Origin: Acidobacteriota bacterium
GTDB lineage: Bacteria; Acidobacteriota; Terriglobia; 20CM-2-55-15
DNA length: 64,000 nucleotides
Direction: 5' to 3'
Assembly: GCA_022821145.1 (NCBI GenBank)
Contig: JAJEEE010000067.1
Span: 1-64,000 of the forward strand
Shown: piece by piece, positions 741 to 5,314 of the stretch
How positions within the stretch are numbered: the stretch's first letter is position 1
Layout of the letters: each line of letters starts with the position of its first letter
Notes under the pieces: generated by a model
Database searches by the model: none
What the model was told of the DNA's origin: nothing
What the model saw: the letters and a program-made list of their open reading frames with translations, nothing else
Position numbers and translations under genes: made by a program

Positions 741-1961
741 ATGGCCCGGCTGATCGTCTCTCTGTGCTTCGCGCTGGCCGCGTCGTCGGCCGTCGCCCAG
801 GACTGGCCCGAGTTCCGGGGGCCGACCGGACAGGGCCATTCCACCCTGCGCGATCTACCGCTGGAATGGGGCGAGGATCGCAACGTCGCCTGGAAAGTGC
901 CTGTCTCCGGGCGTGGATGGTCGTCCCCGGCCATTGCCGATGGAAAGGTCTGGCTGACGACGGCCGTCACCGACGGCCGCGGCGCATCGTTGCGCGCCCT
1001 GGCGTTCGATGCCGCGACCGGAGAGCCGCTCCTCGACGTCGAAGTCTTTCGCCAGGGCGAGTCACGCCTTCTCAACGCGAAGAACAGCCACGCCTCGCCC
1101 ACGCCGATCGTGGACGGGCCGCGCGTCTACGTCCACTTCGGCGCCGCCGGCACGGCCGCGTTGTCCACGTCCGATGGCGAGATACTCTGGACGACGCGTT
1201 TCCCGTACGTCTCCCAGCACGGCAACGGCGGCTCGCCGGCGCTGCACGGCGATCTCCTGATCATCAACTGCGATGGGTACGACCAGGCGTTCGTGGTCGC
1301 GCTCGACACCTCGACCGGACGCGTCCGCTGGAAGCAGGATCGCCGCGGTCGATTCAGCCAGGCCTACTCGACGCCACTGGTGATCGGCGTCGACGGACGC
1401 GACCAGGTGATCAGCATCGGCGCGTTCCGCGCCACGGCCTACGATGCCGAGACGGGCGAGGAGATCTGGTACGTCCGGTACGAAGACGGGTTCTCGAACG
1501 TGCCGCGCCCGGTGTACGGCAACGGCCTGGTATATATCGATACGGGGTTCAACGACCCGACGTTGATGGCGGTGCGCGTGGACGGCTCGGGCGACGTGAC
1601 CGACTCGCACGTCGAGTGGATCGGGACGCGGTCGATCCCGTTCACGCCGTCGCCCGTCCTGGTGGGGTCGGAACTCTACATGGTCAGCGATCTCGGCGTC
1701 ATCACCTGCGTCGACGCGGCGACGGGCGAGGTCCACTGGCGGGAGCGCGTTCTGGGAAACTATTCCGCGTCCCCGCTCTACGCCGACGGGCGGATATACT
1801 TTTCCAGCGAAGAAGGCGTGACGACCGCGATCGCTCCGGGCACGGAGTTCGAGGTGCTGGCGAGCAACACGATCGACGGGCGGATGCTGGCGTCGATCGC
1901 CGTCTATGACGGCGCGTTCTTCATTCGCAGTCACACGCACCTGTACCGGATCGACGCGTGA
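741..1961 (+). CDS. secreted PQQ-like beta-propeller protein
   Basis: This 406-residue protein has an N-terminal signal peptide ending near S-S-A-V-A-Q-D and then the sequence W-P-E-F-R-G-P-T-G-Q-G, typical of the PQQ-like propeller proteins of Planctomycetes, Verrucomicrobia and Acidobacteriota. Repeated blades are visible as A-x-D-x-x-T-G-[ER]-x-x-W, for example D-A-E-T-G-E-E-I-W and D-A-A-T-G-E-V-H-W. Many members of this group bind no PQQ and are not proven enzymes, so no reaction is assigned. It probably acts in the periplasm. It lies between an MBL hydrolase and a thioredoxin-like selenoprotein candidate, all on the plus strand. Confidence 0.85.
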   Translation: MARLIVSLCFALAASSAVAQDWPEFRGPTGQGHSTLRDLPLEWGEDRNVAWKVPVSGRGWSSPAIADGKVWLTTAVTDGRGASLRALAFDAATGEPLLDVEVFRQGESRLLNAKNSHASPTPIVDGPRVYVHFGAAGTAALSTSDGEILWTTRFPYVSQHGNGGSPALHGDLLIINCDGYDQAFVVALDTSTGRVRWKQDRRGRFSQAYSTPLVIGVDGRDQVISIGAFRATAYDAETGEEIWYVRYEDGFSNVPRPVYGNGLVYIDTGFNDPTLMAVRVDGSGDVTDSHVEWIGTRSIPFTPSPVLVGSELYMVSDLGVITCVDAATGEVHWRERVLGNYSASPLYADGRIYFSSEEGVTTAIAPGTEFEVLASNTIDGRMLASIAVYDGAFFIRSHTHLYRIDA

Positions 1962-1991
1962 CGCCGATTCCGCGCCAAAGATGAGGTACGA

Positions 1992-2387
1992 GTGAACTAC
2001 GAAGCCACATTGTTCGTTGCGATACTGATCGGAGTCTGGTTTTTCCTTCTGCGAACGCGAGCGACCCGGCTCGAGGGAAAGGACCAGTTCACGACGCTGC
2101 TCGGCGGCGGCCAGCCCGTCGTCGTCGATTTCTTCTCGAACACCTGAGCGCCGTGCCTGGTGGCGAAACCCATCGTGAATGGGATCGAAAGGGACCTGCG
2201 GGGACGCGCGAGGGTGGTTCGGCTGAACATGCTCAGCACCGTGGGCCGGGACGTCGCCGGCGCGTACGGAGTGGACACCGTGCCGGCAACGGTTGTCTTT
2301 GACGGCGCGGGCGCCGAGGTCTATCGTCACGAGGGGATTCCCAATCGGAAACGGATCGTGGAAGCCTGCCGAGGAGGAGCATCGTGA
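1992..2387 (+). CDS. membrane-anchored thioredoxin-like selenoprotein (Sec at in-frame TGA 2145-2147)
   Basis: A GTG start at 1992, preceded by an AGG at 1984-1986, opens a frame interrupted only by TGA at 2145-2147 and closed by TGA at 2385-2387. Read through, it gives 131 residues: a hydrophobic anchor (about residues 6-20), then V-V-V-D-F-F-S-N-T-U-A-P-C-L, and a cis-proline motif D-T-V-P-A-T. Aligned with thioredoxin D-F-W-A-E-W-C-G-P-C, the TGA falls exactly on the first catalytic cysteine, giving U52-A-P-C55. A hairpin at SECIS distance follows. The likely role is thiol-disulfide (selenol) reduction at the membrane or periplasm. Alternatives are a TGC-to-TGA nonsense mutation or an assembly error, but both halves stay in frame and well conserved. 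The stop overlaps the next gene's GTG. Confidence 0.8.
2169..2183 (+). promoter_or_regulatory. candidate bacterial SECIS hairpin
   Basis: CCCAU (2169-2173) pairs perfectly with AUGGG (2179-2183) around the loop CGUGA (2174-2178). The loop starts 26 nt after the UGA and has G at its second position. Bacterial SECIS elements are known to need a small apical loop with an early G at roughly 16-37 nt from the UGA, and this hairpin fits. An outer GGU/ACC pairing (2159-2161 with 2194-2196) could extend the structure. SelB binding is inferred, not shown. Confidence 0.65.
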
Positions 2388-3487
2388 AGAAGCATCTTGG
2401 GATCGTCGCGGCCGCGGCGATGCTTGCGACCGGTGTGACGGCGCCTGACGCGTGGACGCAAACCCTGCGGGTCGAAGTCGACATGAACGCGCCGGCGCCG
2501 CGCCTGCCGAACGGCCGGCCCGACTTCAGCGGAGTCTGGGCCCGTCCGGGCGCGCAGGACCTGACCCGGTCGGTCACCAACGACAACGGGACGAGCATCG
2601 TCGGCGAGCCGAATCCGCTGCCGTTCACGCCCTGGGGCCAGGCGCAGTGGGACAACTACGACGCCAACCAGTTCGGCGACTACGCCGGGAGCTGCATGCC
2701 GTTCGGTTGGATGCGGTCGTTCACGCCCCACCCGATGCAGATTCTCCAGAACGACGAGTACATCGCGTTCCTCTTCGAGCAGAGCACGATGTTCCAGGTG
2801 GTGAACACCGAGGGCCTGCCCCACCGCGACGGCTGGCCGCCCACCTGGTTCGGCGACTCGCGCGGGCGGTGGGACGGCGACACGCTCGTCATCGAGGCCG
2901 TCAACTTCAACGGGTGGACCAAGCTGGGCACGATCGGCCATCCCGTCAGCGACGAAGGCCGGCTGACGATGACGTTCGAACGCCCGGACATGGGGCGCAT
3001 CCTGTTCACGTGGACCCTCGACGACCCCAAGACCTACACGCGCCCCATCGGCGGCGAGCGGGTCTTCGTCCTGACTCCCGACGTCGAGATCATGGAGTAC
3101 GCCTGCATGGAGGGCAATTTGGGCTCGCTGATCTCCGGCGCGATCACCCCGTGGTTGGGGCCGACGGACGTGGACGAGAACCGAGTGTATCCGGTGGAGC
3201 GGCAGTGGGACGCCTACGACGAAGCCGGCCGCGTGGAAGTCACCGGCGTGGTTCGCGAAGTGGACTACGCGGGGGCCCCCTACGGCGTTGCCCGGATCGA
3301 CACCGGCGGGCGAATCCTCACCGTCATCCTGGCGCCCGTCGGGAGACTGAATTTTCGCCGCGTGACCGAGGAAGCCCTCCGGCCCGGGCTCACCATCGAC
3401 GTTCAAGGGCTTCCGAGCCGGCAGGTCGATGACGAGATCCGCGCGGAGATCGTGACGCTGGACGGCGAAGCCATCGACATGCGTTGA
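2384..3487 (+). CDS. secreted DFSGVW-family protein with degenerate DUF6152-like C-terminus
   Basis: The GTG start overlaps the thioredoxin stop (GTGA) and has the ribosome-binding sequence GAGGAGGAG. A signal peptide is followed by L-P-N-G-R-P-D-F-S-G-V-W, then G-R-W-D-G-D-T-L-V-I-E, D-D-P-K-T-Y-T and E-Y-A-C-M-E-G-N, the signature of a secreted family found seven times in this window. At 367 residues it is about 90 longer than most copies. The extra C-terminus (from about residue 270, V-E-V-T-G-V-V-R-E-V-D-Y) resembles the DUF6152-like fold of the small partner proteins but lacks their N-P-H histidine. The function of the family is unknown to me. Translational coupling to the selenoprotein suggests a shared role outside the cytoplasm. 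Confidence 0.75.
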   Translation: MKKHLGIVAAAAMLATGVTAPDAWTQTLRVEVDMNAPAPRLPNGRPDFSGVWARPGAQDLTRSVTNDNGTSIVGEPNPLPFTPWGQAQWDNYDANQFGDYAGSCMPFGWMRSFTPHPMQILQNDEYIAFLFEQSTMFQVVNTEGLPHRDGWPPTWFGDSRGRWDGDTLVIEAVNFNGWTKLGTIGHPVSDEGRLTMTFERPDMGRILFTWTLDDPKTYTRPIGGERVFVLTPDVEIMEYACMEGNLGSLISGAITPWLGPTDVDENRVYPVERQWDAYDEAGRVEVTGVVREVDYAGAPYGVARIDTGGRILTVILAPVGRLNFRRVTEEALRPGLTIDVQGLPSRQVDDEIRAEIVTLDGEAIDMR

Positions 3488-4474: not shown

Positions 4475-4492
4475 CCTGACGGGAGATTGGAC

Positions 4493-5314
4493 ATGAAGAA
4501 CACGGTTCACTCGAGCCGCATCGTGCTGAAACGGGCGGCATCGGCCGCCGTGCTGCTCGGTTTGACGGTTTCGTGCGCGCCGGCCGAGGAGCCGGCCGCC
4601 GTCGAGGACGCCGGCGCGGGCGAGATGGCCGTGCCCCGGCTCGCGGACGGACGGCCCGACTTCAGCGGCGTCTGGGATCACCCCCGCGTGGGCAACATCA
4701 CCCAGGACGGCGATTCGTGCGCCGGCGGCACGGAAGGATGCGTCCAGGTCGGTTCCGGTCCGCTCCCGTTCACCGCCGAAGGGCAGGCGATGCGGGACAT
4801 CAACGACGAGGACTACTTCGACTACGGCGCATATTGCCTCCCCTGGGGTTTCATGCGCGCCTACGGAACGCCGTATCCGCACGCGTACGTGCACAGCACG
4901 GACCGGTTGGCGATTCTCTGGGAACAGGACAACGCGTGGCACATGGTCCCCACCTATGACGGCGTCGAGTTACCCGCCGACATGGAACCGACTTGGCGCG
5001 GCACGTCCATCGGCCGGTGGGAAGGCGACACGCTCGTGATCACGTCGACGGGGTTCAACGGCCGGACGTGGCTGGACACCGCCCGCAACCCCTTGAGCGA
5101 AGAGTTGACGCTCACGGTCCGGATGACGCGGCCCGAGTACGACACCATCAACTGGGAAGTCACGATGGAGGACCCTCTGTACTACACCGAACCCATCGTC
5201 AACACGCGAACGTTCAAGCTGATGCCGCCCGGCGCGGAGCTCTACGAGTATTCCTGCACCGAGAACAACCGCTGCGAAGGCGGCAATTGCGAGCCCGCCG
5301 ACGTTCAGCTGTAG
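4493..5314 (+). CDS. DFSGVW-family lipoprotein
   Basis: The ATG at 4493 is preferred over an upstream TTG (4487) because GGGAG at 4481-4485 is correctly spaced only for the ATG. The 273-residue product has a lipoprotein signal ending in L-T-V-S-C, then D-G-R-P-D-F-S-G-V-W, G-R-W-E-G-D-T-L-V-I, D-P-L-Y-Y-T-E-P and E-Y-S-C-T-E-N-N-R. It is anchored to the inner or outer membrane facing the periplasm. Its function is unknown. It pairs with the DUF6152-like gene just upstream, the arrangement repeated several times in this window. Confidence 0.8.
   Translation: MKNTVHSSRIVLKRAASAAVLLGLTVSCAPAEEPAAVEDAGAGEMAVPRLADGRPDFSGVWDHPRVGNITQDGDSCAGGTEGCVQVGSGPLPFTAEGQAMRDINDEDYFDYGAYCLPWGFMRAYGTPYPHAYVHSTDRLAILWEQDNAWHMVPTYDGVELPADMEPTWRGTSIGRWEGDTLVITSTGFNGRTWLDTARNPLSEELTLTVRMTRPEYDTINWEVTMEDPLYYTEPIVNTRTFKLMPPGAELYEYSCTENNRCEGGNCEPADVQL

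Follow-up and report, generated by a model that had tools for sequence, protein, structure and literature searches.

Organization of the locus

The window, by which we mean the whole 64 kb stretch of acidobacterial DNA that we analysed, carries a reading frame that runs from GTG 1992 to TGA 2385-2387 and is interrupted solely at TGA 2145-2147. Translating this TGA as U gives a protein of 131 amino acids with selenocysteine (Sec) at residue 52, in the context FFSNT-U-APC, and Pro98 in DTVP. A hydrophobic segment (residues 2-20) is followed by a thioredoxin domain that holds both Sec52-Ala-Pro-Cys55 and Pro98. The features at the locus are as follows.

741..1961, + strand: beta-propeller protein of the PQQ type (Pfam PF13360) whose start resembles a signal peptide; 30 nt separate its end from the Sec-thioredoxin gene, an order kept in the sister species G001
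1983..1986, + strand: Shine-Dalgarno-like GAGG, 5 nt before the GTG; the sister species (locus L047) has an identical GAGG, 5 nt and GTG
1992..2387, + strand: Sec-thioredoxin gene, 131 aa, predicted Sec52, stop TGA 2385-2387
1995..2051, + strand: N-terminal hydrophobic segment, residues 2-20, a predicted membrane anchor (Kyte-Doolittle; AlphaFold2 helix)
2145..2147, + strand: in-frame UGA, predicted to encode Sec, residue 52, at the first-Cys position of C-x-x-C (TGA in all 12 members; machinery present)
2154..2156, + strand: codon for Cys55, the resolving cysteine, invariant in all 12 members; it follows the UGA and precedes the alternative start at 2160
2169..2183, + strand: apical stem-loop of a putative SECIS, CCCAT / CGTGA / ATGGG
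2283..2285, + strand: codon of Pro98, at the thioredoxin cis-proline position, invariant in all 12 members
2384..3487, + strand: downstream protein with a signal-peptide-like start, whose GTG start and the Sec-thioredoxin stop share 4 nt (GTGA)

These coordinates and the translation agree with the initial annotation, which had put a TGA at the first Cys of a thioredoxin C-x-x-C motif and pointed to the cis-proline in D-T-V-P. With the Sec52 site read as Cys, the protein matches Pfam PF00085 (Thioredoxin) at 34.3 bits against a cut-off of 23.5. When we ranked the in-frame TGAs of the window that have open sequence on either side, TGA 2145 had the most coding-like codon usage on both flanks (0.31, with the runner-up at 0.12). 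All that an ordinary ORF caller reports here is GTG 2160-2387, a product of 75 aa, which is the truncated automatic call that had been predicted. Because the UGA splits the gene for such a caller, proteomics on standard gene models would miss the product.

The sister species has the same gene order and the same 4-nt overlap, there as ATGA, and members of the subfamily outside the window genus have different neighbours. The proposal of a secreted-protein operon therefore stands in part: the exported-looking neighbours and the overlap are present within the genus, but the other members sit elsewhere. Any functional link to the neighbours is a guess, and at most one for the window genus, because the neighbours of the other members differ. 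The proteins at 2384-3487 and 4487-5314, neither of which has a Pfam match even at E = 1, share GRPDFSGVW and several cysteines, and both have signal-peptide-like starts.

Selenocysteine machinery in the source genome

The source genome is a 4.18 Mb draft assembly of 89 contigs that is 99% complete. All four genes that had been proposed as a check on the reading, selA, selB, selC and selD, are present: tRNA-Sec (selC; 75.1 bits, anticodon TCA, i.e. UCA), SelA (545 bits), SelB (380 bits) and SelD (360 bits), each with a score above its curated cut-off. A search for another selenoprotein, made as a positive control, indicates that the organism employs Sec decoding elsewhere as well: it found a second gene with an in-frame UGA, of the formate dehydrogenase type (G000:C67:3919-5376, locus L179, TGA at 1768; L180 in the sister species). 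It encodes a molybdopterin enzyme with the TGA in ARL-U-HGPTVASL, which we take to be the formate dehydrogenase motif. In both species the TGA is followed by a strong GUC-loop hairpin.

Decoding of UGA as another residue such as Cys occurs in some bacteria, and Cys and Sec are indistinguishable from DNA alone. We nevertheless consider it very improbable that UGA 2145 is read as some other residue, whether by another tRNA with a UCA anticodon or by loose decoding. Among the best tRNA-Sec-like matches that we checked for anticodon, UCA was seen only in full-length tRNA-Sec, and SelA, SelD and the Sec formate dehydrogenase-type gene are all present.

Members of the subfamily

We searched for members with profiles in 396 phylum genomes and 399 class genomes, and we also scanned public genome contigs. 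This gave 12 distinct members, which come from six acidobacterial families besides one public contig (L060). The initial annotation had asked for a comparison with homologues at this position, and the related genomes carry TGA, not TGC: the Sec52 codon is TGA in 12/12 members, and neither TAA nor TAG ever replaces it among them. The sister species, with 84-85% protein identity, shares this TGA, and the FFSNT-U-APC context around it is identical. In the class sample there were four members at 165-174 bits, all with TGA, and the next matches were at 63 bits or less, almost all of them without an internal stop. We did not find a Cys form inside the subfamily in the phylum, class and public-contig searches. 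The gene is sparse (4/399 class genomes). Another candidate that had been listed with an in-frame TGA, G056, was rejected as a member; its TGA precedes the domain, and the motif itself reads WCAPC.

SelA is encoded in every one of the 12 member genomes, and a clear tRNA-Sec (64-79 bits) was found in 11; a strong tRNA-Sec was not seen in the remaining one, the MAG G178. Since SelA is common in the phylum (above cut-off in 250 of the 396 sampled genomes, ~63%), the association of the gene with SelA is weak by itself, and what carries weight is that there are no exceptions.

The recurrence of the TGA also bears on two other readings, in which the TGA comes from faulty sequencing or assembly, or the gene is a decaying pseudogene. 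The source assembly is a draft in 89 contigs and a single substitution would convert TGA to a Cys codon, but 12 distinct assemblies have the same TGA at the same codon, and one of them is the single-contig genome of Acidobacteria bacterium Mor1. A sequencing error, which had been named in advance as grounds for abandoning the Sec reading, is thus not what the related genomes indicate. Together with the selection described below, which speaks against a pseudogene, this makes error or decay an explanation that we regard as negligible.

In a tree, the Sec forms group with the Cys form of Bacillota bacterium ZC4RG38 (L069) and one other Cys row. The Sec/Cys label needs three changes on this tree, and the starred branches force only one. 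The tree is therefore compatible with one or several origins of Sec and does not decide between them.

We made two further observations on individual members. The most divergent Sec member, L125 (G486; 306-719), has a signal-peptide-like N terminus, with a small hydrophobic protein upstream and a protein starting MANCCRGSAERST downstream; by eye, this neighbourhood resembles a metal-resistance context. In L048 (2597-3049 and 4830-5336), the N-terminal stretch RFVARHSLFIFPGIGF of the Sec-thioredoxin is found unchanged at the start of another ORF of that contig, one that has a CVLCH haem-type motif. The repeated stretch may be a leader common to both, or a repeat in the DNA.

Selection and translation past the UGA

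We compared the gene between the source genome and the sister species. The segment after the TGA has a dN/dS of 0.084, which is strong purifying selection and not what decay would give, and the two other frames of that segment have values of 4.6 and 5.1. The segment before the TGA is poorly conserved (dN/dS 0.54). This sequence comparison supports the view that the region beyond the UGA is translated in the Sec-thioredoxin frame and is under selection.

The same region could be selected as a separate protein if the UGA were a genuine stop, giving a 51-aa membrane peptide and then a 75-aa protein from GTG 2160, which is where the ORF caller places its start. However, Cys55, invariant in 12/12 members, is encoded before GTG 2160 and would be missing from such a protein, which argues against a conserved protein made by re-initiation. 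The 75-aa product would be a thioredoxin that lacks the catalytic motif, several members do not have an ATG, GTG or TTG at the codon equivalent to 2160, and a genuine stop would sit poorly with the fact that, among the members found, TAA and TAG are never used in its place. We judge a genuine stop to be highly unlikely. The reading that we prefer, with high confidence, is that this is an unannotated acidobacterial thioredoxin with a predicted membrane anchor, in which the in-frame UGA encodes Sec in place of the first catalytic cysteine.

A putative SECIS hairpin

Counted from the TGA, the first 60 nt form an alignment of all 12 members that needs no gaps. Within them is the stem-loop CCCAT-CGTGA-ATGGG, which begins 21 nt after the TGA and whose apical loop begins 26 nt after it. 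All five stem pairs form in 11 of the 12 members, with one pair broken in G190, and there is a compensatory change, as one stem pair is A-U in eight members and G-C in three. Paired cells make up 98.3% at the hairpin position and at most 57% when the position is slid. The Gly codon here is GGG in 12/12 members, compared to 21% in the background. Between the source genome and the sister species, the 22 codons that follow the TGA show a depletion of synonymous changes, with 1/20 there versus 27/88 elsewhere in the gene (Fisher P 0.02).

We also estimated how often the stem would arise by synonymous choice, with the amino acids fixed and pooled codon usage. The chance was 1.5% to 8% per lineage, and the joint probability over 10 lineages, leaving out two congeneric copies (including G190 with its broken stem) to limit double counting, was 10^-15.7, a value to be used as a guide only because the lineages are not fully independent.

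A published bacterial SECIS model has criteria for stem, loop, spacing and energy, the last at -7.5 (PMC13188914). The stem of 5 bp, the loop of 5 nt, the G within the first two loop positions (here the second) and the spacing of 26 nt all fit this model. The bare hairpin, at -5.4 kcal/mol, falls short of the model's -7.5, whereas the 54-nt segment that includes the flanks reaches -17.2. For the window sequence alone, the 71-nt region around the UGA folds no better than shuffled sequence (z 0.04), and the case for a SECIS therefore rests on conservation and not on stability. Rfam at the gathering threshold gave no match in the window, a result that says nothing about short bacterial SECIS hairpins. 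RNAalifold also drew another small stem, in which columns 11-13 pair with 18-20; it hardly varies, and we make no claim for it.

Fold and membrane orientation

An AlphaFold2 model built from the twelve-row alignment has a pLDDT of 87.5. The matches that Foldseek listed were thioredoxins, or fusions and complexes containing one, with target TM-scores mostly of 0.7-0.85. The model thus supports a thioredoxin fold. The N-terminal segment has a Kyte-Doolittle mean of 1.81 over 19 residues and is predicted as a helix at residues 3-19.

The side of the membrane on which the domain would sit is less consistent, as the orientation given by the positive-inside rule disagrees between members; an envelope role like that of ResA, TlpA or DsbE calls for a domain on the outer face. 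The window copy has four K/R after the hydrophobic segment and none before it, and by the positive-inside rule this puts the thioredoxin domain in the cytoplasm. The protein would then still be a Sec-thioredoxin, but a membrane-tethered general reductase that faces the cytoplasm and does not act on exported proteins. Against this, Mor1, G438 and SFBin12 have their charges on the N side of the hydrophobic segment, which points to a periplasmic domain, and in G213 and G178 a K/R-rich loop leads into a second helix, which implies a domain outside. The signal-peptide-like N terminus of G486 and the exported-looking neighbours in the window genus also go against a cytoplasmic side. We give the cytoplasmic arrangement a little less than an even chance.

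Relation to known thioredoxins and selenoproteins

Thioredoxins containing Sec were reported in 2006 (Zhang 2006, PMC1794560). A 2026 inventory covers 119 selenoprotein families and subfamilies (PMC13188914), and lists the Sec-thioredoxin (PF00085, UxxC) as experimentally verified, citing Kim 2015. The branch described here has the same thioredoxin domain, Sec at the first catalytic Cys and bacterial-type recoding. Because domain and Sec position are the same, it belongs to the known thioredoxin family by the inventory's own rule. Compared by description, it differs from the known Sec-thioredoxin in having a hydrophobic N-terminal anchor, in that every member found has Sec, and in that its motif lacks the preceding Trp (NT-U-APC, NT-U-MAC, DF-U-LGC). 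The initial annotation had called this a notable selenoprotein; the sequence evidence strongly favours its being real, but Sec-thioredoxins as such were already known (PMC13188914, PMC1794560). What is new is the membrane-anchored and so far Sec-only branch, a novelty that we consider moderate. The selenoprotein reviews that we searched do not mention Acidobacteriota.

TrxA and TrxC (TIGR01068, NF008229) are the best family matches by sequence and structure, and share the fold, the motif position and the cis-proline. The new branch differs from them by Sec in place of Cys and by the membrane anchor, and it scores far under the equivalog cut-offs (47 bits against the TrxA equivalog TIGR01068, where the cut-off is 96.8). 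By profile score, the closest Cys form is that of Bacillota bacterium ZC4RG38 (94 bits), which has a similar hydrophobic N terminus of two segments. Its motif is FYSDF-C-MRC with an ordinary Cys codon, compared to FYSDF-U-MAC in a Sec member.

SaoT (NF040730), HUIPC (NF047660) and TsoB (NF045694) are likewise thioredoxin-like or disulfide-related selenoproteins, and SaoT and HUIPC have a UxxC motif (PMC13188914). No match to SaoT or HUIPC was found at E 0.001 for any of the 12 members, and TsoB gave a weak match (6.4e-4) in one of the 12.

Proposed function and significance

The gene product is best explained, from its sequence and the model, as a membrane-tethered thiol-disulfide oxidoreductase of the thioredoxin fold with a predicted Sec52-Ala-Pro-Cys55 active site. 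In the mechanism that we propose, the short hairpin in the mRNA would recruit SelB carrying Sec-tRNA(Sec) at UGA 2145, and selenocysteine would be inserted there in place of termination. The Sec52 selenolate would be the attacking nucleophile, Cys55 would resolve the mixed selenenylsulfide, and cis-Pro98 would shape the substrate groove as it does in ordinary thioredoxins. We infer the actual insertion of selenium, the role of Sec52 as the nucleophile and the action on disulfides at the membrane. A more specific idea, which we hold tentatively and consider less likely than not, is that this obligately Sec, membrane-anchored branch is a selenium-dependent envelope redox relay in Acidobacteriota that acts on exported partners, such as the gene neighbours in the window genus.

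The finding adds a well-supported and easily missed branch of selenoproteins in a phylum where about 63% of the sampled genomes encode SelA. The Sec-only look of the branch opens the question of why Cys is not tolerated. With it, selenium likely has a part to play at the membrane in a phylum that is widespread in the environment.
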